IMG/VR virus record: IMGVR_UViG_3300029911_000017
Location: 1 to 64,000 of that record
Source: a virus
Reading direction: 5' to 3' (one strand)
DNA: 64,000 nucleotides
In this document: piece after piece, positions 7,204 to 43,863 of the stretch
How positions within the stretch are numbered: position 1 is the stretch's first letter
Layout of the letters: each line of letters opens with the position of its first letter
Position numbers and translations under genes: made by a program
The notes under the pieces: generated by a model
The model's input: only the letters and a program-made list of their open reading frames with translations
Told to the model about the DNA's origin: nothing
Databases searched by the model: none

Positions 7204-7455
7204 ATGAAAAATTCTAAAATTATATTTATAGATGGACATAGGTTAGTTTTATCAGCTATAACTAATTATTATGCATATAATGAGTTTGATAGTCCATCAC
7301 CTCAACCTAGAGATCTACTTAAAGCATGGTTGTATATTGGACTTACTGGTAATAAAGGTATTAATCTCAAGTATAAGGAAGGGTCAAAACGTGACCAGGC
7401 TTTAAAACAATTAGATGAAGCTTTTGAATACTATGAAAATAACAAAAAGATATAA
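7204..7455 (+). CDS. hypothetical protein, 83 aa
   Basis: A small soluble protein (MKNSKIIFIDGHRL...) with a charged helical C-terminus ending EYYENNKKI. Its end overlaps the start of the following cysteine-repeat gene by 23 nt. The junction sequence GAATACTATGAAAATAAC occurs again at 23325-23345, where an unrelated gene also ends EYYENN, so the junction appears to travel with the cysteine-repeat cassette. Function unknown. Confidence 0.6.
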   Translation: MKNSKIIFIDGHRLVLSAITNYYAYNEFDSPSPQPRDLLKAWLYIGLTGNKGINLKYKEGSKRDQALKQLDEAFEYYENNKKI

Positions 7456-7948
7456 TAGATGGTATGACGAAAACAATAATAGCTGGTTATCAGAAGAATT
7501 AGCTACTCTATACTCACCTACCCTAACCGGTTGTACTAGTTGTATTGATTGTGGTTGGTGTGATAATTGTAGTAGTTGTAATAATTGTAGTAATTGTAGA
7601 TATTGCAATGATTGTATTTATTGTAAAGGTTGTAATGGTTGCTATGATTGTAGAGATTGTAATAGTTGTAATTATTGTAGAGATTGTAGAGATTGTATAA
7701 GTTGTATTACTTGTATTGGTTTCAAATCTAACCCACAAAGATTTACTTCTTCTAAAATTGGTTCTAGAAACGCTCAAACTACCATTTATTGGGTAGGAAA
7801 GAATGTTCAAGTAGATTGTGGTTGTTTTACAGGAAATTTGACTGAGTTCAAAAACAAAGTAGAAAAGACTCATAAAAACAATAAGTTTGGTAAGCAGTAT
7901 AAGAAGTTAATCAATCTGGTTGAACACATTATCAAAACCAAAATCTGA
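7433..7948 (+). CDS. (Cys-x-x)n repeat protein fused to a phage C-terminal domain
   Basis: Start chosen at the ATG that gives the family head MKITKR...RWYDE...NSW. About 21 cysteines at three-residue spacing follow. The C-terminal 65 residues are unlike the other copies: AQTTIYWVGKNVQVDCGCFTGNLTEF..K.EKTH...GKQYKK. As I recall it, this matches a small domain (CxCF-x-G-x-L-x-x-F) found at the ends of varied phage proteins. The R-x-L-E-x-x-L tail is missing. The fusion shows the Cys array can be attached to different C-terminal modules. Function unknown. Confidence 0.75.
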   Translation: MKITKRYNRWYDENNNSWLSEELATLYSPTLTGCTSCIDCGWCDNCSSCNNCSNCRYCNDCIYCKGCNGCYDCRDCNSCNYCRDCRDCISCITCIGFKSNPQRFTSSKIGSRNAQTTIYWVGKNVQVDCGCFTGNLTEFKNKVEKTHKNNKFGKQYKKLINLVEHIIKTKI

Positions 7949-16333: not shown

Positions 16334-16861
16334 ATGTTAAACAAACTCAAAGCTAAATTCATTAATTGGTTATTCAACAGTATTAAACCTGAAACTAAAG
16401 GCGCTGATATAACTTATGTAGGTAAGCATATAATTTACATAGGTAAGAGTAATGAAGTATGTAGTTTACCTACTCATCAATTTTCGGCCCAGTCTGAATT
16501 AAAAGGACTTAAAAGTAATTTAGATAGTCGTTATAGAGACGTATGTGAACTAAGATCTAATATAGAATTATTAGCAAATTCGATTAATTCTTTAAGGACA
16601 GAGATGGAATATATAAGGCAGGTAAGCAATATTATGAGAAGAGATACTGTCGTTGGAGTTCCTGCTAGCGTAGGAGGAGTACTACAAGGAATTAGAGGAT
16701 CTGAAATTGTAGTTGATACTAGAAGTGTTGTTCCATCATTAAATGAAGATCCTACAAATTATACAGCCTCTCTAAGACCTACAGTAAGACCAGTAGACGA
16801 GCAATCTACTACTAGAACTATGTATTCAGATGAAGATAGAAATTTAGATCCAAATCTATGA
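16334..16861 (+). CDS. coiled-coil protein carrying the island's C-terminal tail peptide
   Basis: The 175-aa protein has a basic amphipathic start (MLNKLKAKFINWLF), a heptad-like region (about residues 55-95) and a disordered Pro/Arg/Thr-rich end. The last residues are YSDEDRNLDPNL, matching the R-x-L-[ED]-x-x-L tail found on most cysteine-repeat proteins although this protein has only two cysteines. The stop overlaps the start of the next cysteine-repeat gene (ATGA). This is one of four non-Cys proteins with the tail, which suggests a shared destination or partner. Confidence 0.65.
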   Translation: MLNKLKAKFINWLFNSIKPETKGADITYVGKHIIYIGKSNEVCSLPTHQFSAQSELKGLKSNLDSRYRDVCELRSNIELLANSINSLRTEMEYIRQVSNIMRRDTVVGVPASVGGVLQGIRGSEIVVDTRSVVPSLNEDPTNYTASLRPTVRPVDEQSTTRTMYSDEDRNLDPNL

Positions 16862-17229
16862 CAATAATTAAAAGAAATAATAGATACTTTGATGAAAACA
16901 ATAATAGTTGGATAACTGAAGAAGAAGCTACTCAATACTCACCTACCCTAACTAATTGTAGTAGTTGTAGAGATTGTAGTTATTGTAGAGAGTGTAGAGA
17001 TTGTAGAGATTGTAGTCGTTGTAGTTGGTGTAATGATTGTATTGCGTGTATTAATTGTTATGATTGTAGTAATTGCAGAGATTGTTATGCTTGTCATGCT
17101 TGTAGAAGTTGCATACATTGCGCTAATTATTTAAATAAAATAAACCTAGAACCCCAAGAAATTGTTCGTGAATCAACTTTAAGAGAAGAATTTGACCCGG
17201 CCCAGAGACTTTTAGAACCAGACTTATGA
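16858..17229 (+). CDS. (Cys-x-x)n repeat protein, 123 aa
   Basis: The family head is slightly diverged (IIKRNNRYFDENNNSW). It is followed by 19 cysteines with two-residue spacers, mostly S/R/D/N, between residues about 35 and 91. It ends EFDPAQRLLEPDL, the shared tail. ATGA overlaps couple it to the coiled-coil gene upstream and the VWA gene downstream. No signal peptide, so the array should stay reduced in the cytoplasm unless exported another way. Function unknown. Confidence 0.8.
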   Translation: MTIIKRNNRYFDENNNSWITEEEATQYSPTLTNCSSCRDCSYCRECRDCRDCSRCSWCNDCIACINCYDCSNCRDCYACHACRSCIHCANYLNKINLEPQEIVRESTLREEFDPAQRLLEPDL

Positions 17230-18038
17230 GTAATACAAATTATACACATATCGTAGTATTAGTAGACAATAGTGGTAGCATGTTTAATACTAGACAAGCT
17301 ACCGTAGATGGCATAAATAACTTCTTGAATCAACAGAAGGTATTGCCAAGCCAGGATAGAAATCTTAGTTTTGCAGAAGATTTAAGTGATAGTAGTAATA
17401 ATGTTAAATGTACTACTTCGGTAGTATTCTTTAGTAGTGTTAGTCATCCTAGTAATTGGTTTACTAACTATAATTCTAATCATGGAGAACCTGTTGATGT
17501 TAATTTCAATTATGTAGTTCATTTCGATAAAGTTAATATTAACGACATCACTCCTATTCAAGAGATAAGTCCTGTAGGTGGAACTCCATTAATAGATGCA
17601 TTTTGTAAAGCTATTGATGATTGCACACAGTTTATTAATGTGACTAAAGAAGAAGACAGGCCTGGTAGGATTATTTTTCTAGTCATTACTGATGGGGCGG
17701 AAAATAGCAGTACTAAGTTTAAGAAGGATGATCTGTCTAGAAGGATAGCGGATAAACAAAGTCTTAATTGGCAGTTTATCTATCTAGGTGCTAATCAGGA
17801 TGCAATTCAAGAAAGTTCACAATATAGTGTAGCTCCAGGGCAAAGTTTGAATTATCAGCAAACTAGTAGTGGTATTGCATATGCTTATAGTTTAGCTTCT
17901 TCCAATGTCCTACAAAAGCGTTGTGTCGATACTGTTGCCATGTTTACTTGTTCTATTGATGCCCTGGATAAAGTCACAAGTACTAGTCAGATAAGTTTCA
18001 TCACTAATCCAACTTCAACTAATGATACTAAAATATGA
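17226..18038 (+). CDS. von Willebrand factor A (VWA) domain protein
   Basis: The 270-aa protein is a single VWA domain. The MIDAS motif is VVLVDNSGSM (D-x-S-x-S, residues about 10-19), the conserved Thr is in PVGGTPLIDAF, and the third metal-site Asp is in FLVITDGAENSS. VWA domains bind a divalent metal and mediate protein-protein contacts or act with AAA+ partners. Stand-alone VWA proteins occur in several phages with unknown role. It is overlapped on both sides (ATGA), next to cysteine-repeat genes, and no AAA+ partner is visible nearby. Confidence 0.82.
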   Translation: MSNTNYTHIVVLVDNSGSMFNTRQATVDGINNFLNQQKVLPSQDRNLSFAEDLSDSSNNVKCTTSVVFFSSVSHPSNWFTNYNSNHGEPVDVNFNYVVHFDKVNINDITPIQEISPVGGTPLIDAFCKAIDDCTQFINVTKEEDRPGRIIFLVITDGAENSSTKFKKDDLSRRIADKQSLNWQFIYLGANQDAIQESSQYSVAPGQSLNYQQTSSGIAYAYSLASSNVLQKRCVDTVAMFTCSIDALDKVTSTSQISFITNPTSTNDTKI

Positions 18039-18253
18039 CTTATAAAATCTGTGAAGAAATAACTAGTAAAGGTTGGAATTATGGTGTGACTAATGCTCCA
18101 GCAGAGTTAGTTACCAAAGCTAAAAGTATGATTGACGATGAAATGCCAGTAGTATTTGGAATGATACTGAATACAGATAAACCTAAATGGGTATTGCTAA
18201 GCGTAAATAAAGATAATCAACTTTATGTTGCGGCTAGAGGTGTTGATAGCTAA
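18035..18253 (+). CDS. hypothetical protein, 72 aa
   Basis: A small mixed alpha/beta protein coupled by ATGA to the VWA gene. It contains LVTKAKSMIDDEMPVVFGMI and a closing beta segment (WVLLSVNKDNQLYVAARG). No motif recognised. A 40-nt gap follows before the next cysteine-repeat gene, with ATCTTCCCC but no clear terminator. Confidence 0.55.
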   Translation: MTYKICEEITSKGWNYGVTNAPAELVTKAKSMIDDEMPVVFGMILNTDKPKWVLLSVNKDNQLYVAARGVDS

Positions 18254-18293
18254 AAATAAGATGGGAGGATAGTTACTATCTTCCCCTTAATAT

Positions 18294-18746
18294 ATGACAA
18301 TAACAAAAATAAACAATAGATGGTATGACGAAAACAATAATAGCTGGTTATCAGAAGAAGCAGCTACTCAATACTCACCTACCCTAACTAATTGTAGAGA
18401 TTGTAGAGGTTGTAGTAATTGTGATGATTGTAGTTATTGTGATGATTGTAGTAATTGTAGTGGTTGTAGTACTTGTAGAGGTTGTATTAGTTGTAGTGTT
18501 TGTAGTGTTTGTAGTGATTGTAGTAGTTGTAGTAGTTGTAGTGGTTGTAATAGTTGTAGTGGTTGTAGTACTTGTTATAATTGTAGTGGTTGTAATAGTT
18601 GTAGTAGTTGGTGTGATCATTGTATTAATTGTAATAATTGTAGTAGTTGTAGTGGTTGTAATGACTGGACTAATAACATGAAATATGAACCGGTAATTAG
18701 ACCATTTATAGACTGTACTAACAGACTATTAGAACCAGACTTATGA
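18294..18746 (+). CDS. (Cys-x-x)n repeat protein, 150 aa, longest array
   Basis: The head is TITKINNRWYDENNNSW. About 30 cysteines follow, the largest array in the window, with one spacing slip (SSWC). The tail is KYEPVIRPFIDCTNRLLEPDL in type. The first roughly 180 nt are identical to the copy at 20390, and the last part matches the copies at 20812 and 23332, so it is a mosaic of recently exchanged segments. The coding DNA is a 9-nt-periodic TGT-rich repeat that leaves other frames open, which may promote slippage. Function unknown. Confidence 0.82.
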   Translation: MTITKINNRWYDENNNSWLSEEAATQYSPTLTNCRDCRGCSNCDDCSYCDDCSNCSGCSTCRGCISCSVCSVCSDCSSCSSCSGCNSCSGCSTCYNCSGCNSCSSWCDHCINCNNCSSCSGCNDWTNNMKYEPVIRPFIDCTNRLLEPDL

Positions 18747-19000
18747 ACAATCCAAACATATCAATAGTTATAGCTAAAAATATAGTAAATGGTAATACTA
18801 TAACCTCAGAATTTAAGCTTAAACCTGAAGAAACAGCTATTATAACTGAACCAGATCACCTAGAATTTACAAACTTCATACCTAATGAAACAGTATTCAT
18901 GGAAGCTGATATGAATTTAAGGATGATGAATTCCTTCCTAGAAAAGATTAAAATTTTACCAACTAAACAAAGTATTAATATAAAAATGATAAATATATGA
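18743..19000 (+). CDS. hypothetical protein, 85 aa
   Basis: A small Asn/Ile-rich protein coupled by ATGA overlaps to both neighbours. It shows an acidic centre (KPEETAIITEPDHLEF) and a helical part (ADMNLRMMNSFLEKI). No family recognised. It lacks the R-x-L-E tail. Confidence 0.55.
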   Translation: MNNPNISIVIAKNIVNGNTITSEFKLKPEETAIITEPDHLEFTNFIPNETVFMEADMNLRMMNSFLEKIKILPTKQSINIKMINI

Positions 19001-19317
19001 ATTATTTCCTCATCGTAGCCAAACCTACCAAAGAGCTAGTCCCACTTAGTATTATAAAAGATTTGTTTGATGGATTTAGTGGATCTACAAATATTTCAAA
19101 GGTATTGGACGAATCAACCGTATATATTAGAATTTCGAGTAAAGAATCACTAAAGAAGGTGGAACTTGATAATAATGATACAGTCTATTTAGCTGCTAAA
19201 GTAGATTCCACTTATTATAAAGTAATAGATAAAGATGATTTTGAATTAGCTACACAGATTTATGCTGAGCTTAAATTGAATAAATGTAGAATACACCCTA
19301 AAATATTGTTTATATGA
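18997..19317 (+). CDS. hypothetical protein, 106 aa
   Basis: The protein starts MNYFLIVAKPTKELVPLSII and contains alternating strands and helices, compatible with a small ferredoxin-like alpha/beta fold. No catalytic motif is visible. ATGA overlaps tie it to the genes on both sides. Confidence 0.55.
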   Translation: MNYFLIVAKPTKELVPLSIIKDLFDGFSGSTNISKVLDESTVYIRISSKESLKKVELDNNDTVYLAAKVDSTYYKVIDKDDFELATQIYAELKLNKCRIHPKILFI

Positions 19318-19793
19318 CTTTCCTAGAACAATGCTTCCAAGACCATAATAGTACAATAGTTAAAATTAATATAGATTTAGTTAATAGATTGGTTCAAATA
19401 TGGAATACTAATAATACTTATTCTAATTTAACTTTTGGTGGGATAGAACAAAAAAATAACAATAAATTAAAAGTAGGTCAATGTAGAGACATTAACATCT
19501 ATTTAGAGATTCCAATAATAAGTTCTCTTCTATATTTTGAGTTTGATAGATTAACCTATAATTACCACTATTTTAGTCCTGGTTCGGAATATATAGAAGT
19601 TGATAATAGTCTGATTAAAATACAAAGGTCGATTGTACATTATAGTAGTGTTATTCCAGCATTGATCCGAAAAGCAAAAGATATTGAAAAGAAGAAGAAA
19701 CATTATGCTAAACTAACTACCAGAAGCATAAAAACAGCTCAGCAAGAACTCAAGAATTTCCAGGATGCTATTAAACCAAAAACCAAAAAGTAA
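19314..19793 (+). CDS. hypothetical protein, 159 aa
   Basis: The N-terminal two thirds are beta-rich with many aromatic residues (LYFEFDRLTYNYHYF). The C-terminal 45 residues are a strongly basic helix (KAKDIEKKKKHYAKL...). No family recognised. It closes a run of ATGA-coupled genes; the next start lies 33 nt away in a CAACAAACCAA-rich leader. Confidence 0.55.
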   Translation: MTFLEQCFQDHNSTIVKINIDLVNRLVQIWNTNNTYSNLTFGGIEQKNNNKLKVGQCRDINIYLEIPIISSLLYFEFDRLTYNYHYFSPGSEYIEVDNSLIKIQRSIVHYSSVIPALIRKAKDIEKKKKHYAKLTTRSIKTAQQELKNFQDAIKPKTKK

Positions 19794-19826
19794 ACAACCA
19801 AACCAACAAACCAACAAACTAATATT

Positions 19827-20114
19827 ATGCCTATATCACCATTACCAGCCCTAGTCTCTGACCCTAAAGATGCCATTCTTTGGGCAGTTTTAAATCAATT
19901 AGAGAATATCGATGACACTACCGGTACTAGAATGGCTTTTGCAACTAGTGTAGCTTATAACATTCACTTAGGTCTGGATCGTCCTATATTTGAAGATATT
20001 ATTAGAGAAATTAGAACTGTACTCAAGGTTCCAGAGCCGGTTATCAGTGAAGTTGAAGAACCAGGAACTATGCGGGCTGATATAACTGAATTCGATACTA
20101 TGCGTGACCTTTAA
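19827..20114 (+). CDS. hypothetical acidic protein, 95 aa
   Basis: A compact helical protein (MPISPLPALVSDPKDAILWAVLNQL...) with an acidic C-terminus (EVEEPGTMRADITEFDTM). It is preceded by a repetitive CAAACCAACAAACCAACAAAC leader. No motif recognised. Confidence 0.55.
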   Translation: MPISPLPALVSDPKDAILWAVLNQLENIDDTTGTRMAFATSVAYNIHLGLDRPIFEDIIREIRTVLKVPEPVISEVEEPGTMRADITEFDTMRDL

Positions 20115-20126
20115 TTAAGAAGTAGT

Positions 20127-20393
20127 ATGAAAACTTATGACTATAAAGTAATACTAATAAATCATGATGGTTGTAATGATTGCTACAATTGTAGTGATTG
20201 TATTGATTGTTGGGATTGTAGTGGTTGTAATGATTGTAATAATTGTAGTAATGGTATTAATTGTAGTGATTGTGAAGGACTTTATAATTTTATAAATAAG
20301 AAAAATTGGTCAGCGCAACCTAGCATTGATACAACAAATGAAAAACGACCTATCTTAGACATTAATGATAGAAATCTAGACCCTTTCTTATGA
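20127..20393 (+). CDS. short (Cys-x-x)n protein without the standard head
   Basis: This 88-aa variant replaces the usual head with MKTYDYKVILINHDG. It has 11 cysteines at three-residue spacing with one interruption (SNGIN), then a linker and the tail LDINDRNLDPFL. It shows that the Cys array and tail can occur without the RWYDE/NSW module. ATGA overlap to the next copy. Possibly a degraded cassette, but the frame is intact. Confidence 0.7.
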   Translation: MKTYDYKVILINHDGCNDCYNCSDCIDCWDCSGCNDCNNCSNGINCSDCEGLYNFINKKNWSAQPSIDTTNEKRPILDINDRNLDPFL

Positions 20394-20815
20394 CAATAAC
20401 AAAAATAAACAATAGATGGTATGACGAAAACAATAATAGCTGGTTATCAGAAGAAGCAGCTACTCAATACTCACCTACCCTAACTAATTGTAGAGATTGT
20501 AGAGGTTGTAGTAATTGTGATGATTGTAGTTATTGTGATGATTGTAGTAATTGTAGTGGTTGTAGTACTTGTGGAGGTTGTATTAATTGTAGTGTTTGTA
20601 GTGTTTGTAGTGATTGTAGTAGTTGTGGAGGTTGTATTAATTGTAGTGTTTGTAGTGTTTGTAGTGATTGTAGTAGTTGTAATGATTGTAGTGATTGTAA
20701 AAAATGTTATAAATGTGATAATGGAACACATCTAGAGCCAGTTCAAATTAAGACTGAAGTTATGATAAGACCAGAATTAGACATTAATGATAGAAAGTTG
20801 GAACCAGACTTATGA
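20390..20815 (+). CDS. (Cys-x-x)n repeat protein, 141 aa
   Basis: Head and first repeats are identical in DNA to the copy at 18294. About 26 cysteines are present. Within the array an 18-residue unit (CGGCINCSVCSVCSDCSS) is tandemly duplicated. The tail is ELDINDRKLEPDL. It is the middle of three consecutive ATGA-coupled cysteine-repeat genes (20127, 20390, 20812). The duplication shows the array length is changing by unequal exchange or slippage. Confidence 0.82.
   Translation: MTITKINNRWYDENNNSWLSEEAATQYSPTLTNCRDCRGCSNCDDCSYCDDCSNCSGCSTCGGCINCSVCSVCSDCSSCGGCINCSVCSVCSDCSSCNDCSDCKKCYKCDNGTHLEPVQIKTEVMIRPELDINDRKLEPDL
20570..20677 (+). repeat. 54-bp tandem duplication inside a Cys array
   Basis: Positions 20570-20623 and 20624-20677 repeat the same 54 bp, beginning TGTGGAGGTTGTATTAATTG. 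It keeps the reading frame and adds six cysteines. The two units look identical, so the event is recent. Confidence 0.85.
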
Positions 20816-21189
20816 CAATAACAAAAAGAAATAATAGATGGTATGACGAAAATAATAATAGTTGGATAACTGAAGAATCAGCTACTCAATACTCACCTAC
20901 CTTAACTAATTGTTATGATTGTAGAGGTTGTAGTAATTGTAGTAGTTGTAGAGATTGTTATAATTGTAGTTATTGTAGTAGTTGTAGTAATTGTAGTAGT
21001 TGTATTAATTGTAATAATTGTAGTAATTGTAGTAATTGTAATAATTGTAATAGGTGTAGTGATTGTAGTGATTGTAGTTATTGTAGTCGTTGTAGAGATT
21101 GTAGTGATTGGACTGATAATAAGAAATATGAACCGGTAATTAGACCATTTATAGACTGTACTAACAGACTATTAGAACCAGATTTATGA
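20812..21189 (+). CDS. (Cys-x-x)n repeat protein, 125 aa
   Basis: The head is TITKRNNRWYDENNNSW, followed by about 22 cysteines and the tail EPVIRPFIDCTNRLLEPDL. From 20830 to about 21010 the DNA is the same as in the copy at 27163 (6.3 kb away), while the C-terminal part instead matches 18294 and 23332. ATGA overlaps link it to the preceding copy and to the macro-domain gene. Function unknown. Confidence 0.82.
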   Translation: MTITKRNNRWYDENNNSWITEESATQYSPTLTNCYDCRGCSNCSSCRDCYNCSYCSSCSNCSSCINCNNCSNCSNCNNCNRCSDCSDCSYCSRCRDCSDWTDNKKYEPVIRPFIDCTNRLLEPDL

Positions 21190-21683
21190 ATAACAACCTT
21201 AAAATAGTAGAACAAAACATATTATTAGCAGACGCCCAAGTAGTTGCTCATTGCTGTAATAATATGAACAAAATGGGTAGTGGGGTAGCCAGAGCCCTAA
21301 GATGTAGATTTCCGGAAGTATATGCAACTGATACCAAGTCTTATATTAACTTTGGTTCAGCTATGTTGGGTAAATGTGTGTTAGTTCCTATCACTACTCT
21401 ACCTAATCAGACCAAGCTACTATACGTTGCCAATCTATATGGTCAATTAGGTTATGGTACAATGCATCTTAGATATGTGCATTATGAAGGATTTTACTTA
21501 GCTTTAGAGTCATTAATAAAGCAAATGAGTGAGCAGAATATGACTAGACTGGCTTTACCTTATAAGATAGGTGCGGATAGGGCTGGCGGTAATTGGAATA
21601 TTATTGAAACTATGGTTAAGGAGGTTATTAAAGGAAGTAACATTGAAGTTACTCTATATAAACTTCCTAAAAAGTTAATGTAG
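21186..21683 (+). CDS. macro-domain protein (ADP-ribose binding/hydrolysing)
   Basis: The 165-aa protein is a single macro domain. AHCCNNMNKMGSGVARALRCRFPEVY (shown here as the family block around residues 20-45) corresponds to the ADP-ribose-binding 'HxxNxxxxxGxGxAxA' region. ALPYKIGADRAGGNWNII (about residues 120-137) is the second block and resembles Poa1p/ALC1-like macro domains. Such enzymes remove ADP-ribose or ADP-ribose-1''-phosphate. A phage copy could reverse ADP-ribosylation-based or NAD-derived host defence signals, or recycle metabolites; this is inference. It is ATGA-coupled to a cysteine-repeat gene. Confidence 0.85.
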   Translation: MNNNLKIVEQNILLADAQVVAHCCNNMNKMGSGVARALRCRFPEVYATDTKSYINFGSAMLGKCVLVPITTLPNQTKLLYVANLYGQLGYGTMHLRYVHYEGFYLALESLIKQMSEQNMTRLALPYKIGADRAGGNWNIIETMVKEVIKGSNIEVTLYKLPKKLM

Positions 21684-21685
21684 TT

Positions 21686-21919
21686 ATGACTCTTTATATC
21701 ATTCTAAGACATATCAGATCTCCATCAACTAACGCTATTATAGACGTCCTATATCAAGCGTTTCAAAATAAGGAGGCAGCCCTGGAATATATCAAATTTT
21801 TAACAGATAATAGTACTGTAGTAGGTGAATTTGAATTGAAGGAGTTTGTATCGGTTGAGAAAGATGAGATAACAATTAGAAGTGAGGGTGGGGAAAGAAG
21901 ATTAGAACCAGATTTATGA
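21686..21919 (+). CDS. hypothetical protein with the island's C-terminal tail
   Basis: The 77-aa protein has an alpha/beta start (MTLYIILRHIRSPSTNAI) and no cysteines. It ends ITIRSEGGERRLEPDL, almost the same ending as the unrelated gene at 24377 (SIRSEGGERRLELDL). The stop overlaps the next cysteine-repeat gene. It is one of the four non-Cys proteins with the R-x-L-E tail. Confidence 0.65.
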   Translation: MTLYIILRHIRSPSTNAIIDVLYQAFQNKEAALEYIKFLTDNSTVVGEFELKEFVSVEKDEITIRSEGGERRLEPDL

Positions 21920-22329
21920 CAATAACTAAAAGAGATACTAGATGGTATGACGAAAACTATAATAGCTGGGATACTAAAGAATCAGCTACTTTACACTCAC
22001 CTACCCTAACTGATTGTAGATGGTGTAGAGGTTGTAGTGATTGTAGAAGGTGTAGTAATTGTAGATATTGTAGTGATTGTAATGCTTGTAGTGGTTGTAA
22101 TGGTTGTAGAGATTGTTATAATTGTAGTAATTGTATTGATTGTAGAGATTGTAATGGTTGTAGTGATTGTAGTAGTTGTAGAGATTGTATTTATTGTAGT
22201 AGTTGTAGTAATATTTCTTCAGAAAATGATAAATCGTGGTTTAAGTCCATGTATTATGGAGATGAAGTTAATAAGGAAATAAGACCAGAATTAGACATTA
22301 ATAATAGAAAGCTAGACCTAGATTTATGA
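21916..22329 (+). CDS. (Cys-x-x)n repeat protein, 137 aa
   Basis: The head is TITKRDTRWYDENYNSWDTKE. About 22 cysteines follow with spacers rich in R, D, N and G. After the array a linker (SSENDKSWFKSMYYGDE) leads to the tail PELDINNRKLDLDL. ATGA overlaps on both sides. Confidence 0.82.
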   Translation: MTITKRDTRWYDENYNSWDTKESATLHSPTLTDCRWCRGCSDCRRCSNCRYCSDCNACSGCNGCRDCYNCSNCIDCRDCNGCSDCSSCRDCIYCSSCSNISSENDKSWFKSMYYGDEVNKEIRPELDINNRKLDLDL

Positions 22330-22652
22330 TTGTATATGCTATTAAAATATTGAAAGTTAAATATAGTAGAAATACCCTACCTAATAAGTTTGTTAGAGTA
22401 GTTATTAAGTATATCGAATTTTATGATAGGGAAGGTTACTGTGATGATGAAGAACAGACTAGTATTGAACCTGTAGATTTATACCAAGCCTCTTTGTATC
22501 TTAGTAAAGAAGCTGTGGAACAAGAAATTAAAAGGGTAAGGATGATAAAAGAAGCGTACAAATACGAAATAGTTGAGATAGAATTAGCTGAGTTAAGTAA
22601 GCCTGAAATAAGAATAGAGAACCAGTACAGAAGATTAGATCTAGAATTATAA
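22326..22652 (+). CDS. hypothetical protein with the island's C-terminal tail, 108 aa
   Basis: A soluble, charged protein with an acidic loop (GYCDDEEQTS) and helices (SKEAVEQEIKRVRMIKEAY). It ends EIRIENQYRRLDLEL, a variant of the shared tail. Unlike most, it is not followed by a cysteine-repeat gene but by the phosphatase, so the tail is not merely part of the junction with the cysteine-repeat head. Function unknown. Confidence 0.62.
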   Translation: MIVYAIKILKVKYSRNTLPNKFVRVVIKYIEFYDREGYCDDEEQTSIEPVDLYQASLYLSKEAVEQEIKRVRMIKEAYKYEIVEIELAELSKPEIRIENQYRRLDLEL

Positions 22653-22657
22653 ACAAT

Positions 22658-23098
22658 ATGCCTAAAGCCACAAATATAAATTGTCATGCCGCCAAAGATA
22701 TCAATAAACTACCAGATAACACAGTATTGATATCAATAAATGAAGAATATGAGCCACTTTATCCTTTAAAGTTGGATAGAGAGTCAGAAAATGTGTTAAC
22801 TTTAAGATTTACTGATATAACTGCACCTTTAACTCATGAAGGCGAAATGTATCATCCTATTAGTGCTGAAGATGCTTTTAAAATATTAAAGTTCATTGAT
22901 AAGCATTTAACCAAAGATTTCATAGTTCATTGTGCAGCTGGGGTATCTAGAAGTTCAGCTATTTGTCTCTATCTACATATTATGCATTCATATGTGTTAA
23001 AAGACAATTTTTGGCTTTCTTCTTCACCTAATTGCTATGTACTTGGTATGTTAATGCGGCGTAAGGTTGAGCAGGAATCTATGTTAGACGAGATTTAG
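22658..23098 (+). CDS. dual-specificity-type protein phosphatase
   Basis: The 146-aa protein carries the Cys-dependent phosphatase loop HCAAGVSRSSA (HCx5R[ST], residues about 91-101) and a preceding helix IDKHLTKDFIV. This is the compact dual-specificity / tyrosine phosphatase fold. The general-acid Asp is probably in the FTDI segment or nearby loop, but I cannot place it with certainty. It could dephosphorylate host proteins or small phosphorylated signals. It starts 5 nt after the preceding stop. Confidence 0.8.
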   Translation: MPKATNINCHAAKDINKLPDNTVLISINEEYEPLYPLKLDRESENVLTLRFTDITAPLTHEGEMYHPISAEDAFKILKFIDKHLTKDFIVHCAAGVSRSSAICLYLHIMHSYVLKDNFWLSSSPNCYVLGMLMRRKVEQESMLDEI

Positions 23099-23099
23099 T

Positions 23100-23345
23100 A
23101 TGTCAGATCCAAATCCTCGTATCTTTCCTACTCGATTTCGGCTTTTGAGTAATATGGAAGTCATAATAACTAAAGAAATAGATGTACAGTGGTGGGGTGA
23201 TCTACATTATTTATTCGATGTAATTATAGAAGATAATAATAACTACTTTTTAGTATATAATAAAGTAGGAGAGACACAGGTTAAAGCTATTATAAAAAGG
23301 AGAGAACTTAAACAGTATAATGGTGAATACTATGAAAATAACTAA
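23100..23345 (+). CDS. hypothetical protein, 81 aa
   Basis: A small beta-rich protein (MSDPNPRIFPTRFRLL...), starting 1 nt after the phosphatase stop. It contains VQWWGDLHYLFDVIIEDNNNYFL and a basic RRELKQ near the end. It ends EYYENN, overlapping the start of the next cysteine-repeat gene by 14 nt in a junction shared with 7425-7450. Function unknown. Confidence 0.55.
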   Translation: MSDPNPRIFPTRFRLLSNMEVIITKEIDVQWWGDLHYLFDVIIEDNNNYFLVYNKVGETQVKAIIKRRELKQYNGEYYENN

Positions 23346-23664
23346 AAGAGATGATAGATGGTATGACGAAAACGATAATAGTTGGTCTACAGAAGAATCA
23401 GCTACTCAATTCTCACCTACTCTAACTAATTGTATTAGTTGTAGAGATTGTAGATGGTGTAATGATTGTAGAGATTGTAGAGATTGTTATAATTGTAGTA
23501 ATTGTAGTAATTGTAGTAATTGTAGTAGTTGTACTTATTGTAGATGGTGTAATGATTGTAGTAACTGTATTGATTGTAGTGATTGGACTGATAATAAGAA
23601 GTATGAACCAGTAACTAGACCGTTTATAGATTGTAGAGATAGACTATTAGAACCAGATTTATGA
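23332..23664 (+). CDS. (Cys-x-x)n repeat protein, 110 aa
   Basis: Start at 23332 chosen to give the family head MKITKRDDRWYDENDNSW; an in-frame ATG 12 nt upstream would add MVNT. About 17 cysteines follow and then DWTDNKKYEPVTRPF and the tail CRDRLLEPDL, shared with the 18294 and 20812 copies. ATGA-coupled to the next copy. Confidence 0.8.
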   Translation: MKITKRDDRWYDENDNSWSTEESATQFSPTLTNCISCRDCRWCNDCRDCRDCYNCSNCSNCSNCSSCTYCRWCNDCSNCIDCSDWTDNKKYEPVTRPFIDCRDRLLEPDL

Positions 23665-24059
23665 AAATAACAAAAATAGCTAATAGATGGTATGACGAAA
23701 ACAATAATAGCTGGGATACTGAAGAAGCAGCTACTTTATATTCACCTACCCTAACTAATTGTTATAATTGTAGTAATTGTAGTAATTGTAGTGTTTGTAG
23801 TGATTGTAGTAATTGGTGTAGTAATTGTAATGATTGTGATAGTTGTAGAGATTGTATTAATTGTAATAATTGTGGTAGTTGTAGTAGTTGTAGTAATTGT
23901 AGGAGTTGTTGTAGGTGTAGTGATTGTGATAATTGTAAGTTTATTGCTTCTTTATTTGATAGAGTTGAAGTTGATGCAAGTTTAATTGAAAGCTGCAAAG
24001 AAAATTTAGTTAGAGAAGAATTTGACTTAAACAATAGAAAACTGGAAATAGAACTATGA
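23661..24059 (+). CDS. (Cys-x-x)n repeat protein, 132 aa
   Basis: The head is KITKIANRWYDENNNSWDTEEA. About 21 cysteines follow, with two departures from the strict period (SNWC and RSCCRC). A distinctive linker (FIASLFDRVEVDASLIESC) precedes the tail EEFDLNNRKLEIEL. ATGA overlaps on both sides. Confidence 0.8.
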   Translation: MKITKIANRWYDENNNSWDTEEAATLYSPTLTNCYNCSNCSNCSVCSDCSNWCSNCNDCDSCRDCINCNNCGSCSSCSNCRSCCRCSDCDNCKFIASLFDRVEVDASLIESCKENLVREEFDLNNRKLEIEL

Positions 24060-24328
24060 AGACACTATACGAATTTGAAGAACAACAAAAAGAACTTATA
24101 GCTGCTTGTGAGAGAGAAGCTAAAGCTAAATTAGAAGGCAAAAATGTATTTATGGATACTTTTGCGCATCGGTTTGAAGATATAGTTGAAGAAATACAAA
24201 GAGATGCTAGGAGAGAAGGGGTTAGAGATTGTATAAGGGATATACATATGTGTAAATCAGTTCAATCTAATCCAGACATTATTTATACCCATGAATTAAT
24301 AATAGCAAGATTAATTAAACTATTATGA
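24056..24328 (+). CDS. helical hypothetical protein, 90 aa
   Basis: A strongly charged, mainly helical protein (EFEEQQKELIAACEREAKAK...), with an Arg-rich centre (EIQRDARREGVRDCIRD). No family recognised. It is coupled by ATGA to neighbours on both sides. It lacks the shared tail. Confidence 0.58.
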   Translation: MKTLYEFEEQQKELIAACEREAKAKLEGKNVFMDTFAHRFEDIVEEIQRDARREGVRDCIRDIHMCKSVQSNPDIIYTHELIIARLIKLL

Positions 24329-24426
24329 ACATATATGAAGTAGTAGATAAATATGAACTAGCACAATATATTCTAAATGAAAATATACCTAATACAGGTT
24401 CTAAAACTAAATGGTTTTCTATATGA
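24325..24426 (+). CDS. very small ORF, 33 aa, possibly frameshifted part of the next gene
   Basis: Its ATG overlaps the preceding stop as in the rest of the operon (MNIYEVVDKYELAQYIL...), but it ends after 33 codons while the next frame already opened at 24377. The arrangement suggests either two overlapping small genes or one original gene broken by an indel near 24410. Confidence 0.4.
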   Translation: MNIYEVVDKYELAQYILNENIPNTGSKTKWFSI

Positions 24427-24670
24427 TAATGCTGATGAAATTCGGTATTTAGCAGTGAATTCTTATATAGACTATACAACAAGGGAAGTAAAAAATGCTA
24501 GAGTATTTGAAGATAGAGAAAAAATTGGAGACGAACTATATGAAATTACACTAATGAATAGTTTTAATTTTCTCGTTACTAAAATTCTTGAGTTTGAGCT
24601 AGTAGAATTTAAAGGTAATAAGTCAATTAGAAGTGAGGGAGGAGAGAGAAGATTAGAACTAGACTTATGA
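24377..24670 (+). CDS. hypothetical protein with the island's C-terminal tail, 97 aa
   Basis: A soluble charged protein whose start lies inside the preceding 33-codon frame. The middle has TTREVKNARVFEDREKIGDEL. The end SIRSEGGERRLELDL is shared with the otherwise different protein at 21686. The stop overlaps the next cysteine-repeat gene. The true N-terminus is uncertain if a frameshift links it to the 24325 frame. Confidence 0.55.
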   Translation: MKIYLIQVLKLNGFLYDNADEIRYLAVNSYIDYTTREVKNARVFEDREKIGDELYEITLMNSFNFLVTKILEFELVEFKGNKSIRSEGGERRLELDL

Positions 24671-25146
24671 CAATAACTAAAATAGATAATAGATGGTATG
24701 ACGAAAACAATAATAGTTGGTCTACAGAAGAACTAGCTACTACTGACTCTCCTACCCTAACTAATTGTAGTAGTTGTAGAGATTGTAGATGGTGTAGGAA
24801 TTGTATTCATTGTAAAGGTTGTATTGGTTGTATTGATTGTTATGATTGTAATGATTGTAGTAATTGTAGTAGTTGTAGTGGTTGTAGTAGTTGTATTGAT
24901 TGTAATCGTTGTAGTGATTGTACTGGCTGTATTGATTGTAGTTATTGTAGTTATTGTAATAATTGTAGTGAGTGTAGTAACTGTAAAAACTGTTATAAAT
25001 GTAATACCTTTTCTTTTTGTAGAAACTGTGCTTTTGGTTTTAAGAAAAGCTATTATAAACCTATGAAGTATAAACGTAGAGCTAAGAAGAGTAAAATTAG
25101 ACAGGAATATGACATTAATGATAGAAGATTGGAGATTGAACTGTGA
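24667..25146 (+). CDS. (Cys-x-x)n repeat protein, 159 aa
   Basis: The head is TITKIDNRWYDENNNSWSTEEL. About 29 cysteines follow, interrupted once near the end (KCNTFSFCRNC). A basic linker (KKSYYKPMKYKRRAKKSKIRQE) precedes the tail DINDRRLEIEL. The Lys/Arg linker is like those in the 26083, 27163 and 27752 copies and may bind nucleic acid. It is followed by a gene using a GTG start in a GTGA overlap. Confidence 0.82.
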   Translation: MTITKIDNRWYDENNNSWSTEELATTDSPTLTNCSSCRDCRWCRNCIHCKGCIGCIDCYDCNDCSNCSSCSGCSSCIDCNRCSDCTGCIDCSYCSYCNNCSECSNCKNCYKCNTFSFCRNCAFGFKKSYYKPMKYKRRAKKSKIRQEYDINDRRLEIEL

Positions 25147-25388
25147 TAGCAAACCATATAATATTAACCAGCTGTTACTTAGTAGTAGGGATACTTATAG
25201 CTTTAAGAACTGTTATTGAATATACTGACATCCATTACTATCCTAAGAAGTGTAAGTTAATATTATTTATCCTAGTAATTGCCATATATGCTGTAATAGA
25301 TGTAACAATTTGGCCTTTATATGCAATTTTAGGTTTGATATCAGGAATAAGAAGATTAACCAAAGAATTTTTTAAGAATAACAACTAG
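25143..25388 (+). CDS. small membrane protein, 81 aa, GTG start
   Basis: Two hydrophobic segments (HIILTSCYLVVGILIAL and LILFILVIAIYAVIDVTIW) with a short charged loop, followed by a basic tail. The start codon is GTG, overlapping the stop of the upstream cysteine-repeat gene (GTGA). Function unknown. Confidence 0.55.
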   Translation: MIANHIILTSCYLVVGILIALRTVIEYTDIHYYPKKCKLILFILVIAIYAVIDVTIWPLYAILGLISGIRRLTKEFFKNNN

Positions 25389-25419
25389 ACAAACAAACAA
25401 ATTAACGTATAATAAACAT

Positions 25420-26052
25420 ATGAAATTAACATCAATAACATCAATAATGGCAGTAATTAGTCTATGCACTATTTCTGCTTTCGGTCAAACTAATGTCACT
25501 CAAGTCCCAAACTTGATGGCCAACATTCCTGTCTCAACAGCTGTGCAGGCTATCTATCAGGACATTGCAAATTCTGGTATTATGCAGGCAACTAATTGGG
25601 GAGTTAGTCCTTATGGTACTTATGCACCTAAGTCAGCTAACAAATATGGTGGTGGTGTATTGGCAGTATATAATGTCCCAACACTTACCGGGTCTTTAGG
25701 AGCAGTTGGTGCAGTGTTAGGGGCAGATTGGTTGGGGTCCTGGTCTTTGGTCAGTGGTTCAGTAACTCTTTCAACACCTACGCATCCATTAGCATCAACA
25801 TCACTATTAAACTGGCTTCCTACCGGTATTCGTAACATTGAAGCTGATCCTATTGCTATTGCTGGTATCGGAACACCCTTATCTGGGTCATCTGGGGCAG
25901 CTGAGTTGTGGGATATAGGATACAACGTTGATATTTATAATACTGCTACTAGTAAAGTCGGCGCTGGGTTTACTTGGGGTGAATGGATCAATGCCGGAAC
26001 TGAGTCTGGACATAGATATCACTTATTCGTTAGTTGGAAATACAACTTCTAA
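25420..26052 (+). CDS. exported outer-membrane-type protein, 210 aa
   Basis: A signal peptide (ITSIMAVISLCTISAFGQ, cleavage after Gln or Gly-Gln) precedes a Gly/Ala/Ser-rich mature chain with amphipathic strands. The end HLFVSWKYNF has the aromatic C-terminal residue typical of outer-membrane barrels. A recurring style with the 5027 protein suggests a related role at the host surface, perhaps blocking re-infection. It is not overlapped by its neighbours, unlike the rest of the island. Confidence 0.58.
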   Translation: MKLTSITSIMAVISLCTISAFGQTNVTQVPNLMANIPVSTAVQAIYQDIANSGIMQATNWGVSPYGTYAPKSANKYGGGVLAVYNVPTLTGSLGAVGAVLGADWLGSWSLVSGSVTLSTPTHPLASTSLLNWLPTGIRNIEADPIAIAGIGTPLSGSSGAAELWDIGYNVDIYNTATSKVGAGFTWGEWINAGTESGHRYHLFVSWKYNF

Positions 26053-26082
26053 TTTAGTTAGAGTAGTTTATACTACTACACT

Positions 26083-26406
26083 ATGAAACTAACAAAAAGA
26101 AATGATAGATGGTATGACGAAAACAATAATAGTTGGATAACAGAACAACTAGCTACTCTACACTCACCTAATCTAACTAATTGTAACTGGTGTAGTGATT
26201 GTAGTAATTGTAATAATTGTAATAGTTGTAGTGATTGTAGTGATTGTAGAGATTGTTATATGTGTGTTAATTGTAGGAGTTGTAATCATCTTGCAAATAA
26301 GAAAAACTATAAACCACAACCTATTAAATCTAAGAAAAAGAAGAAAATTACTAAAATTAGACAAGAATACAATATTAACGATAGAAGATTGGAACTAGAA
26401 TTATGA
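26083..26406 (+). CDS. (Cys-x-x)n repeat protein, 107 aa, short array
   Basis: The head is KLTKRNDRWYDENNNSWITEQL; 12 cysteines; a Lys-rich linker (KPQPIKSKKKKKITKIRQE) and the tail YNINDRRLELEL. The sequence before the ATG (ACTACTACACT) matches that before the 1134 copy, where it codes for the end of the C39-like protein. The cassette therefore appears to have been copied together with its leader. ATGA-coupled to the SGNH gene. Confidence 0.8.
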   Translation: MKLTKRNDRWYDENNNSWITEQLATLHSPNLTNCNWCSDCSNCNNCNSCSDCSDCRDCYMCVNCRSCNHLANKKNYKPQPIKSKKKKKITKIRQEYNINDRRLELEL

Positions 26407-27101
26407 AAATAATAGCAGATGGTGATAGTTGGAACAGCTACCCACTTCCTTTCTCTGGTGGTGGGTTGGCTGATCATTTAGCTGTTGTGTTAGATATTGA
26501 TATTGAAAACTATGCCCATCCCGGTGATAGTACTGAAGAAACAATGGGCTTAAAGAAGAGATTAAAGTTGGAACAATATCTACCAAACAGTGATATCTTA
26601 TTATTCTCAGGTGGTGGTGATGATTTTGTGGGTGATCAGCTTCCTATATTTCTAAATGATAATAAGGATGGAAATATTAATAAAGCCATAGATCTTGATA
26701 GACTTGATGCAGCCATGGATCTTGCTATAGCAGATTATGAGGATCTGTTTCAGTTAAGAGATGAAATAGCTCCTAACTGTCTCATAATTACACATAGCTA
26801 TGATTTTCCTGTTCCTGAAATGATTGGTAATGGTGTATTGTGGTTAGGTCCTTGGATTAAACCTGGGATGGATCATTGTGGCTGGACTAATCCTAAAGAT
26901 GCTGCTGATATAACGAAGCTTATTCTTTTAGAATTTGAAAGAAGAATAAGTTTGCTCAGTCTACCTAATCATCTTCATATTAATTTTCAAGGAACATTAA
27001 CTACTTCTGACTGGGGTAATGAAATACATCCTAATAGTAGTGGTTGGAAGAAGTTAGCTAATCAAATTAAATTGAAATTAGTCCATTATTTAAATAAATA
27101 A
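26403..27101 (+). CDS. SGNH/GDSL-type hydrolase
   Basis: The 232-aa protein begins IADGDSWNSYP, which gives the nucleophile Ser of block I (GDSW variant). ILLFSGGGDDFVG fits the Gly/Asp block III. NEIHPNSSGWKKLA near the end supplies the Asx-x-x-His block V. The set points to an esterase or deacylase of the SGNH superfamily, the 'GDSW-x-x-Y' subgroup. There is no signal peptide, so the substrate is cytosolic or it acts after lysis. It ends just before a strong terminator. Confidence 0.78.
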   Translation: MKIIADGDSWNSYPLPFSGGGLADHLAVVLDIDIENYAHPGDSTEETMGLKKRLKLEQYLPNSDILLFSGGGDDFVGDQLPIFLNDNKDGNINKAIDLDRLDAAMDLAIADYEDLFQLRDEIAPNCLIITHSYDFPVPEMIGNGVLWLGPWIKPGMDHCGWTNPKDAADITKLILLEFERRISLLSLPNHLHINFQGTLTTSDWGNEIHPNSSGWKKLANQIKLKLVHYLNK

Positions 27102-27116
27102 TATCAATCTTAACAT

Positions 27117-27140
27117 AGCCTCCTACAAAATTAGGAGGCT
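27117..27140 (+). terminator. intrinsic terminator after the SGNH gene
   Basis: AGCCTCCTA and TAGGAGGCT form a 9-bp stem around CAAAAT, followed by ATTATCATTT. It closes the run from 26083 and separates it from the last two cysteine-repeat copies. Confidence 0.72.
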
Positions 27141-27162
27141 ATTATCATTTACAAACAGCACT

Positions 27163-27576
27163 ATGAAACTAAGAAAACGAAATAATAGATGGTATGACGA
27201 AAATAATAATAGTTGGATAACTGAAGAATCAGCTACTCAATACTCACCTACCTTAACTAATTGTTATGATTGTAGAGGTTGTAGTAATTGTAGTAGTTGT
27301 AGAGATTGTTATAATTGTAGTTATTGTAGTAGTTGTAGTAATTGTAGTAGTTGTATTAATTGTTATAATTGTAGTGATTGTAGTAATTGTAGAAATTGTA
27401 TTAGTTGTAGTCGTTGTAGTGGTTGTAGTATTTGTAAAGGTTGCAAACAGTCAATAGAATTAGACTTTAAGAAAAACTATAAACCACAGCCTATTAAATC
27501 TAAGAAAAAGAATAAAATTGCTAAAATTAGACAGGAATACAATATTAATGATAGAAGATTGGAGATTGAACTATGA
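27163..27576 (+). CDS. (Cys-x-x)n repeat protein, 137 aa
   Basis: The head is KLRKRNNRWYDENNNSW; about 21 cysteines; then KGCKQSIELDFKKNYK, a Lys-rich linker and the tail INDRRLEIEL. The first half is the same in DNA as the 20812 copy and the second half as the 27752 copy, making it a clear recombinant. ATGA-coupled to the next gene. Confidence 0.82.
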   Translation: MKLRKRNNRWYDENNNSWITEESATQYSPTLTNCYDCRGCSNCSSCRDCYNCSYCSSCSNCSSCINCYNCSDCSNCRNCISCSRCSGCSICKGCKQSIELDFKKNYKPQPIKSKKKNKIAKIRQEYNINDRRLEIEL

Positions 27577-27755
27577 TAATAAACAATAAAAATACAATCG
27601 ATGATACTTATATATTGGTTGATAAGATAAATGGAACATTAAATTTTGAAGACCTTACCATAGTTGATTTAAGTGATGATGAAGTTAGAATACTTAATTA
27701 CGCTTATGCTTTAAATGGTAGTTCTTTACGTTATATTTCAGTAACACAATCATGA
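27573..27755 (+). CDS. hypothetical protein, 60 aa
   Basis: A small acidic protein (MIINNKNTIDDTYILVDKIN...) with a likely beta-hairpin start and helical end. It is sandwiched by ATGA overlaps between two cysteine-repeat genes. No family recognised. Confidence 0.55.
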   Translation: MIINNKNTIDDTYILVDKINGTLNFEDLTIVDLSDDEVRILNYAYALNGSSLRYISVTQS

Positions 27756-28129
27756 AACTAACAAAAAGAGCTGATAGATGGTATGACGAAAACGGTAATA
27801 GTTGGATAACTGAAGAACTAGCTACTACATATTCACCTACCTTAACTAATTGTTATAATTGTAGAGATTGTAGTAGTTGTAGTAATTGTAGTAGTTGTAT
27901 TAATTGTAGTTATTGTAGTGATTGTATTAATTGTAATAGTTGTAGAAGTTGTAGTCGTTGTAGTGCTTGTTATAATTGTATAGGTTGTAAAGGTTGCAAA
28001 CAGTCAATAGAATTAGACTTTAAGAAAAACTATAAACCACAGCCTATTAAATCTAAGAAAAAGAATAAAATTGCTAAAATTAGACAGGAATACAATATTA
28101 ATGATAGAAAGCTAGAATTAGAATTATGA
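27752..28129 (+). CDS. (Cys-x-x)n repeat protein, 125 aa
   Basis: The last copy of the family. The head is KLTKRADRWYDENGNSW; about 17 cysteines; the KGCKQSIELDF module and Lys-rich linker are shared with the 27163 copy; the tail is INDRKLELEL. ATGA overlap with a very small frame that ends the island. Confidence 0.82.
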   Translation: MKLTKRADRWYDENGNSWITEELATTYSPTLTNCYNCRDCSSCSNCSSCINCSYCSDCINCNSCRSCSRCSACYNCIGCKGCKQSIELDFKKNYKPQPIKSKKKNKIAKIRQEYNINDRKLELEL

Positions 28130-41359: not shown

Positions 41360-41360
41360 A

Positions 41361-42182: not shown

Positions 42183-42183
42183 A

Positions 42184-43860: not shown

Positions 43861-43863
43861 AGA

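Follow-up and report, generated by a model that had tools for sequence, protein, structure and literature searches.

Phage proteins built from a common head, a (Cys-x-x)n array and exchangeable C-termini

Fourteen proteins encoded in the bacterial virus DNA analysed here (a stretch of 64,000 nucleotides, called the window below) are assembled from three exchangeable modules, namely an N-terminal head, an array of Cys-x1-x2 triplets and one of several C-termini, and a common C-terminal tag unites twelve of them with four neighbouring proteins that have no array. Between near-identical phages the arrays are hypervariable: most of them are largely replaced, and the heads are changed as well. Our reading, to which we give a probability of roughly 40%, is that these are diversifying phage accessory proteins, thin solenoid rods that would be addressed by the tag and reshuffled as binders or decoys.

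The array family, its relatives and its fold

All fourteen frames are present at the starts given in the original prediction, open and with ATG, and, as it had it, twelve lie between positions 16858 and 28129, the other two being 1134..1529 (131 aa, 19 Cys) and 7433..7948 (171 aa, 23 Cys); every window gene named here is on the plus strand. Its estimate of close to 290 cysteines, nearly all TGT and nearly all at three-residue spacing, agrees with our count of 293 (284 TGT and 9 TGC), 285 of which fall within arrays of exact three-residue spacing. The range of 11 to 30 cysteines per protein is right at its lower bound and has to be extended to 31 at its upper, the number found in 18294. A head with the elements RWYDE, NSW and SPTLTNC can be aligned in thirteen members, as claimed, 20127 being headless, yet the strict wording does not hold for five of them, which read RYFDE (16858), RWYDK (1134), SPTLTGC (7433), SPTLTDC (21916) and SPNLTNC (26083). 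A pattern of eight TGY codons at 9-nt spacing has 171 matches in the window and none in 100 dinucleotide shuffles, while scans for promoters and terminators gave no enrichment over shuffles.

The original prediction would be refuted, by its own account, if stop codons or frameshifts interrupted the majority of copies in relatives, which is not what is seen. A survey of the window and its relatives gave 49 complete frames with a run of at least seven TGY codons, a threshold that is blind to arrays split into shorter runs; L302, a chance run containing a stop, was left out, and three further frames cut by the end of a stretch stood outside the survey. None of the 48 genuine frames is interrupted by a stop inside the run; in frame with the run, the head is present in 47 of them and the tag in 45. 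At one locus of the cultured Campylobacter relatives, a truncation or frame shift affects three of seven array copies, and two of the three damaged copies are identical.

The family has a profile, phrog_15341, which all seven scanned members (of the fourteen) match with E values from 3e-7 to 1e-19, 20127 by its array only, and which has a match in eight of eight records. The best matches of this profile are in the Campylobacter Firehammervirus phages CP220 and CPt10, where the same architecture is seen, a head of the form Y.D.NNN.W...EEA...S.SL.NC followed by (Cxx)n. In those phages there are two copies each, untagged and with spacers rich in K, E, V and I, whereas the phage studied here has fourteen copies, the tag and spacers of S, N, D and R. 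Among the matches listed in scans for the (Cxx)n pattern, at least 20 of 118 viral stretches (five from this phage group) and at least 11 of 117 genome stretches, some of them doubtful, are array-like as judged by a filter for spacer diversity; many others are simple DNA repeats. One head query gave no match in plasmids. We found no description of (Cys-x-x)n phage proteins in the literature surveyed, including passages of PMC2853527 and PMC3322345. One annotator labelled F379_061 'cysteine rich'.

With cysteine making up 11–21% of each protein, the family calls to mind a metal or thiol buffer, that is, a metallothionein-like phage sponge in which only cysteine density and solubility would count, the spacers would drift and copy number would represent dose. 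This is the main rival to our reading, and it is in keeping with the range of 9 to 66 cysteines in the Campylobacter phage arrays and with the order of units, which between paralogues is no better conserved than shuffled; such freedom of order fits a repertoire equally well. Metallothioneins are likewise small and very rich in cysteine. Their spacing, however, is a mixture of CxC and CC, in contrast to the strict Cxx found here, and no scanned member matches a metallothionein family in Pfam or NCBIfam. A buffer would also leave unexplained why the head is conserved, and why the two spacer positions differ: x1 is chiefly S, R, I or N and x2 chiefly D, N, S or G, and the commonest residue is not the same at the two positions here and in 17 of 18 other listed arrays (in L129 it is N at both). 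Together with the C-terminal features described below, which recur on proteins lacking the cysteine ladder, these preferences argue against metal binding or redox buffering as the main reading, as first proposed, and we regard it as rather unlikely.

No Pfam family reaches its cut-off for the seven scanned members. The three-residue repeat is shared with the HxsA (His-Xaa-Ser) family, and the HxsA4 family is linked to radical SAM enzymes. One could thus imagine the arrays as precursors of radical-SAM-modified (thioether) peptides, particularly as the Campylobacter phages have many radical SAM genes: at a second Campylobacter locus the array gene stands three genes before one of them (CPt10, F379), and in IBB_35 four genes before. 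In addition, L164 weakly matches the NCBIfam model HxsA4, scoring 17.1 bits where the cut-off is 55. That said, the HxsA model has no match in four window members or in L100, the radical SAM family PF04055 is absent from all six records of these phages (which may be fragments), no such enzyme is annotated in the fetched stretches around the portal-locus array, and we hold this origin to be highly improbable.

As for the fold, AlphaFold2 gives the head as a hairpin and a helix, with a pLDDT of 86 for the first ten-residue block and 79 for the second, while the array stays at about 36–49 and 26–42 by blocks in two jobs, and no array fold is obtained; a Foldseek search against the PDB returned nothing at E 0.001. 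A structural analogy is offered by the Tenebrio-type beetle antifreeze protein (PF02420, 1EZG), which is cysteine-rich and whose beta-helix, according to PMC8038014, points every third residue inward (positions 2, 5, 8 and 11 of 12), a period equal to that of the arrays and the arrangement we propose for them. The antifreeze protein differs in its 12-residue motif, TCT face, disulfides and secretion; its repeat TCTxSxNCxxAx gave no Pfam hit in the seven members, and the match to its PDB entry is compositional (sequence E 0.066, best stretch i-E 3.5). The record of CPt10 itself carries weak PF02420 hits on the CPt10 array protein. The idea of a regular column with one thiol face, put forward in the original prediction, is a fair one.

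C-terminal tag, caps and neighbours

The tag, R-x-L-[DE]-x-x-L at the very C-terminus, is found on twelve of the fourteen array proteins. It reads RLLEPDL in 16858..17229 (123 aa, 19 Cys), 18294..18746 (150 aa, 31 Cys), 20812..21189 (125 aa, 23 Cys) and 23332..23664 (110 aa, 18 Cys), RKLEPDL in 20390..20815 (141 aa, 26 Cys), RKLDLDL in 21916..22329 (137 aa, 22 Cys), RKLEIEL in 23661..24059 (132 aa, 22 Cys), RRLEIEL in both 24667..25146 (159 aa, 29 Cys) and 27163..27576 (137 aa, 21 Cys), RRLELEL in 26083..26406 (107 aa, 12 Cys), RKLELEL in 27752..28129 (125 aa, 17 Cys) and RNLDPFL in the headless 20127..20393 (88 aa, 11 Cys). The four tagged proteins without an array are 16334..16861 (RNLDPNL), which overlaps the next gene by 4 nt, 21686..21919 (RRLEPDL), 22326..22652 (RRLDLEL), which ends in TAA and does not overlap the next gene, and 24377..24670 (RRLELDL). 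Between them lies an untagged neighbour, 21186..21683, a DarG-like macrodomain protein (PADLOC DarG, E 1.6e-8; Pfam Macro, E 0.004, below cut-off), while none of eight scanned array or tagged proteins matches a PADLOC defence model.

The tag is borne by 16 of 177 genes in one record, 11 of 200 in a second and 27 of 151 in a third, and internal copies number 0 in 38037, 0 in 44762 and 1 in 24924 positions, or one in about 108,000. The tag is conserved at the amino-acid level more than at the base level: its third codon positions are unconstrained, the last codon excepted, and the 21-nt sequences can be as little as 38% identical. It is, in other words, a protein-level tag. An overlap with the start of the following gene is far commoner among tagged genes (58 of 76) than among untagged ones (65 of 333), so the last codon of the tag is partly set by this overlap. 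An RNA signal or ribosome site as the whole cause was nevertheless rejected, because codon choice at Arg1 and Leu3 is near that of the genome and 18 of the 76 tagged genes have no ATGA overlap with a start downstream.

What would such a tag be for? A single short motif shared by the ends of many small, otherwise different proteins is familiar from cargo peptides such as the T4 capsid-targeting sequence and those of encapsulin cargo, and the tag may similarly be a virion-packaging signal, the array proteins being internal and injected with the DNA. We consider this improbable, as the Campylobacter phage relatives (eight sequences) have no tag. A PDZ-type reader was also considered and dropped, the PDZ_2 and PDZ_6 models having no match in five records. 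Searches with one 27-residue tail (tblastn against a phage collection) gave no match, three viral scans with tagged non-array queries matched no contigs from outside this phage group, and neither a precedent for the tag nor a binding partner was found.

The two remaining members end differently. In 1134, the C-terminus is a hydrophobic helix, FVLKLFLVLLGGTLILMLVNYL, identified by eye, which is likely a membrane anchor. The protein 7433 ends in a solenoid-type cap, GSRN..CGCFTG..EF, unique to it in the window. The general form of this cap, GSR..CGCF.G..EF, recurs at four other (Cxx)n loci, namely L040 (which belongs to this phage group), L100, L129 and L164, and, what is more, closes hexapeptide (VYGNARVSGDA) and pentapeptide (SGANL) repeat proteins of other phages (phrog_7964/20532). 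Those proteins differ in having a period of 6 or 5, no cysteine ladder and another head; repeats of the type A-N-L-x-x or V-x-G-N-A-x are not seen in our arrays, whose period is 3. A search with a second type of cap (L152) matched one phage record. That the cap closes arrays without a cysteine ladder, and that the tag sits on proteins without any array, both weigh against the buffer reading. The original prediction did not touch on the tag, the exchangeable C-termini, the relatives or the variability.

Array replacement between close phages

Compared with its close relative L010, the phage has fourteen of fourteen neighbouring genes at 98.8–100% identity, whereas in nine of the ten array genes compared, the aligned array positions are only 75–94% identical and most of the alignments have gaps, the tenth gene (the headless 20127) being identical. 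The heads are 86–99% identical (one could not be aligned) and the tails 88–100%. L010 arrays have few 27-mers in common with their orthologues, the exception being 24667 (33 of 80), and some in common with paralogues (27 of 92 and 14 of 26 from 24667), although L010 is a metagenome assembly in which repeats may be misplaced. In the window itself, 20812 and 27163 have an identical stretch of 185 nt in common. The same contrast is found in seven cultured Campylobacter phages, with portal at 97.0–100%, ligase at 94.9–100% and arrays of very different length. Arrays thus seem to change chiefly through the copying and shuffling of units.

The claim that multiplication of the gene implies strong selection therefore needs care, with dN/dS of the heads at about 0.57 and arrays that seem mostly copied and shuffled. 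An excess of nonsynonymous over synonymous changes of 64:1 is weakened as a sign of positive selection because the arrays here use nearly one codon per residue; the constancy of cysteine over 180 compared codons says little, as the runs had been selected for cysteine. Diversity-generating retroelements of phages also produce a hypervariable region within a fixed frame. Here, however, the changes extend to whole units and to the heads, bases other than A are also altered in the 24667 pair, and the reverse transcriptase PF00078 is absent from all six records (possibly fragments), so this source was rejected.

One may ask whether the proteins matter at all, or whether the arrays and tag seams are simply DNA-level repeats, substrates for recombination and slippage, with products of little function. 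The codon monotony of the arrays, with 1.7% C on the coding strand, would suit this, as would the over-representation of identical units at distances of one and of four steps, the lack of the interval 20812–27163 in L018 (where assembly collapse is possible) and the damaged Campylobacter copies. The lag-4 signal comes from identical whole units only and does not amount to a coil-length periodicity; other lineages lean to a spacer lag of 5, or show no lag. Against a DNA-level cause stand the 48 unbroken arrays of the phage group, the constraint on the heads, the conservation of the tag in amino acids and the serine codons, which in like triplets vary by lineage between AGT, TCA, TCG and AGC. 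Taken together, we find a pure DNA repeat quite improbable.

Proposed mechanism and significance

To return to the solenoid reading, the hairpin and helix of the head would act as N-cap, and the array would form a thin solenoid with cysteine inside, leaving two exposed residues per triplet and x2 (mostly D, N, S or G) at the turns. In the reducing cytosol, the core would hold free or metal-bound thiols, not disulfides. The tag may bring the array proteins, along with accessory proteins of other kinds, to a single partner or location. A dozen different rods would be retained, with recombination reshuffling them, for the sake of their variable faces, which would bind changing host factors or act as decoys for them. 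The rods are probably a repertoire of binders or decoys that is reshuffled in this way, encoded in an accessory island together with the DarG-like macrodomain protein. Points against such a repertoire are the missing AlphaFold2 array fold, the missing coil-length periodicity and the three of seven broken Campylobacter copies. In its fullest form, with a recombination-driven binder repertoire, a three-residue cysteine solenoid as a new class of repeat and a common target of the tag, for example a host defence machine, we deem the proposal unlikely, if far from negligible.

If it is right, phages would possess a repeat fold of shorter period than the pentapeptide and hexapeptide solenoids, one that evolves fast through the shuffling of units and needs no retroelement to do so. 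A C-terminal signal would unite accessory proteins of different families, and the accessory proteins of such phages could be listed from their last seven residues. Even under a rival reading, fourteen genes and 293 cysteines spent on thiol-rich proteins demand an explanation.

Array genes and their island

The fourteen frames that the original prediction had read as (Cys-x1-x2)n arrays, x1 and x2 being the spacer residues of each triplet, are real, and its estimate of about 290 cysteines, nearly all TGT, agrees with our count of 293, 284 of them TGT. Three-spaced arrays hold 285 of the 293, and an eight-unit TGY pattern matches the window 171 times, against 0 in 100 shuffles. The common N-terminal head (RWYDE / NSW / SPTLTNC type) is likewise present in thirteen members, the exception being 20127 (members are named by their start in the window). 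The island at 16.3-28.1 kb is densely packed, with 30 predicted genes, all on the plus strand, and four-base overlaps at 18 of 29 junctions. It includes a DarG-like macrodomain protein (21186-21683; PADLOC DarG E 1.6e-8), which may strip ADP-ribose from DNA and thereby counter DarT-type defence. Also seen there were a VWA-type domain protein (17226-18038; weak Pfam matches below cut-off) and a dual-specificity/tyrosine phosphatase-like protein with HCAAGVSRS (22658-23098; E 5e-5, below the Pfam cut-off).

The virus record comprises 80,229 bases, 10,477 of which are identical to part of a 127,352-base contig, and a tail-sheath match at 61675-63333 suggests that the phage is contractile-tailed. 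It carries a MYG1/UPF0160 exonuclease-family protein (7952-8938; Pfam E 9.5e-55). Several adjoining minus-strand proteins (38876-44742) have, by eye, a common N-x-L-R-x-Y-P-like N-terminal motif and are perhaps duplicated baseplate or fibre parts.

Fold, cap and C-terminal tag

AlphaFold2 predicts a hairpin and a helix for the head and leaves the array without a confident fold; no coil period was found in the array spacers. The two spacers have different preferences: S, R, I, N and Y prevail at x1, and D, N, S, G and Y at x2, all of the latter except Y being turn formers. As for possible geometry, PMC8038014 describes the beetle antifreeze helix as a 12-residue coil with residues 2, 5, 8 and 11, i.e. 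every third, pointing inward, and a (Cxx)4 coil with its four cysteines inward would fit this frame. The likeness is one of geometry; at sequence level, the match with the antifreeze protein 1EZG is compositional. By eye the array proteins show no signal peptide, so that their cysteine core is probably reduced or metal-bound.

The C-termini are exchangeable. In 7433 the last 70 or so residues form a cap (GSRN..CGCFTG..EF type), found in ten phage records. In the eight inspected by eye, the repeats before it are hexapeptide or hexapeptide-like (six), pentapeptide (one) and short pentapeptide-like (one). (Cxx)n precedes the same cap in 7433 and at four loci (L040, of the same phage group, L100, L129 and L164), and thus occupies the place of known solenoids. 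Protein 1134 ends in a hydrophobic helix; the gene immediately before it (655-1137) encodes a protein whose N-terminus has a hydrophobic helix and in which a CGPATL motif resembles, by eye, a papain-type peptidase, a reading without Pfam or NCBIfam support.

A C-terminal tag, R-x-L-[DE]-x-x-L, is carried by twelve of the window's array proteins and also by proteins of other kinds. It is terminal in 16 of 177, 11 of 200 and 27 of 151 predicted genes of three records, the latter two having some genes in common, and internal in 0, 0 and 1 cases over about 108,000 positions. Its 42 distinct DNA versions are as little as 38% identical (mean 67%), third codon positions vary, the last codon excepted, and the Arg1 and Leu3 codons are near genome usage, so that the constraint acts on the protein. 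Tagged genes overlap the next start in 58 of 76 cases, versus 65 of 333 others, which accounts for the last Leu codon but for no other part of the tag. Among proteins without arrays, 32 distinct tagged ones are listed, counting near-identical versions. A search seeded with tagged members minus their last 20 residues gave a family of about 88 residues (MNEFxIGDxV), often in tandem (L011 1662-2991; L320 16092-19729), with the strict tag in 12 of 13 members; the thirteenth ends RRIDIEL.

Array growth and variability

In the window's phage group, serine in arrays is 98% AGT, versus 36% in other genes, and the coding strand contains 1.7% C. The dominant Ser codon differs by lineage (AGT here, TCA in L164, TCG in L066/L152, AGC in L099); one codon per residue predominates in several lineages, L097, L262 and L293 being mixed. 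A triplet of this kind, with one commonest residue at x1 and another at x2, recurs in 17 of the 18 listed arrays. Given this monotony and recurrence, arrays seem to grow by copying units, the protein pattern being what is retained.

In the near relative L010, DNA identity is 98.8-100% for all 14 genes without arrays that were compared, and complete for seven of these; the headless 20127 is identical as well. Nine other array genes have tails 88-100% and heads 86-99% identical (one head unaligned), while the aligned part of their arrays is only 75-94% identical, gaps reaching 473 columns where L010 carries an extra gene, a comparison in which arrays could be misplaced by metagenome assembly. 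The mildest change is that of 24667 (94%, gap-free). The 27-mers of the nine L010 arrays rarely match the orthologue, except in 24667 (33 of 80); two arrays share 27-mers with the paralogue 24667 (27 of 92 and 14 of 26). Heads are constrained (dN/dS 0.57; 36 heads, 630 pairs). Among window paralogues, unit order is overall no more alike than shuffled (median and mean 0.18, 91 pairs), a few pairs such as 20812/27163 being alike. The main rival explanation, a bulk thiol or metal buffer, accounts equally well for such free spacer order. At L018 ~4000-4270, 20812 and 27163 are fused and the intervening ~6 kb absent, by either deletion or assembly collapse. The original prediction had named broken frames in most related copies as evidence against it; all 48 genuine arrays in the group are intact.

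Because of the assembly caveat, we turned to phages isolated in culture. In seven Campylobacter phages compared at their portal-ligase locus (CP21 was excluded, its portal being annotated in pieces), identity is 97.0-100% for the portal and 94.9-100% for the ligase, whereas the array protein varies between 69 and 240 residues in length and between 9 and 66 in number of cysteines. Non-Cys identity is 26-80%, setting aside pairs CPt10/CP20, CPt10/CP220 and CP20/CP220. Truncation or a shift is seen in three of the seven copies, that of CJLB-14 and those of CPt10 and CP20 (identical to each other), and speaks against a strict need for the protein in these phages. In CPt10 (L325 2183-2392), a (Cxx)n array runs into a stop codon after 12 cysteines, and the profile match spans one TGA.

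Relatives and possible function

The proposed profile search did find a phage family, phrog_15341 (function not annotated; strongest matches CP220 and CPt10, where the head is still recognisable), but no model exceeded the cut-off in Pfam (seven members) or NCBIfam (four members and two relatives). The sole NCBIfam match, L164 to HxsA4, lies far below (17.1 bits, cut-off 55). A query with a related head gave Campylobacter records in 17 of 19 matches; further lineages carry (Cxx)n arrays with related or quite different heads. In bacterial proteins (L212, L221 and L255, from Mycobacterium; L258 and L283), by eye, six-residue AGS-type repeats lead into (Cxx)n, and these proteins share an SGL-type tail.

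The array proteins are real, present in many phages, nameless in the libraries searched, and richer in features than originally reported; their anatomy, tag and hypervariability are firm. They would form a maintained, reshuffled set of differing rods, steered by one common tag. This retention and reshuffling, the tag, and an island with a DarG-like macrodomain suggest that they may act against host factors, as variable binders or as decoys.
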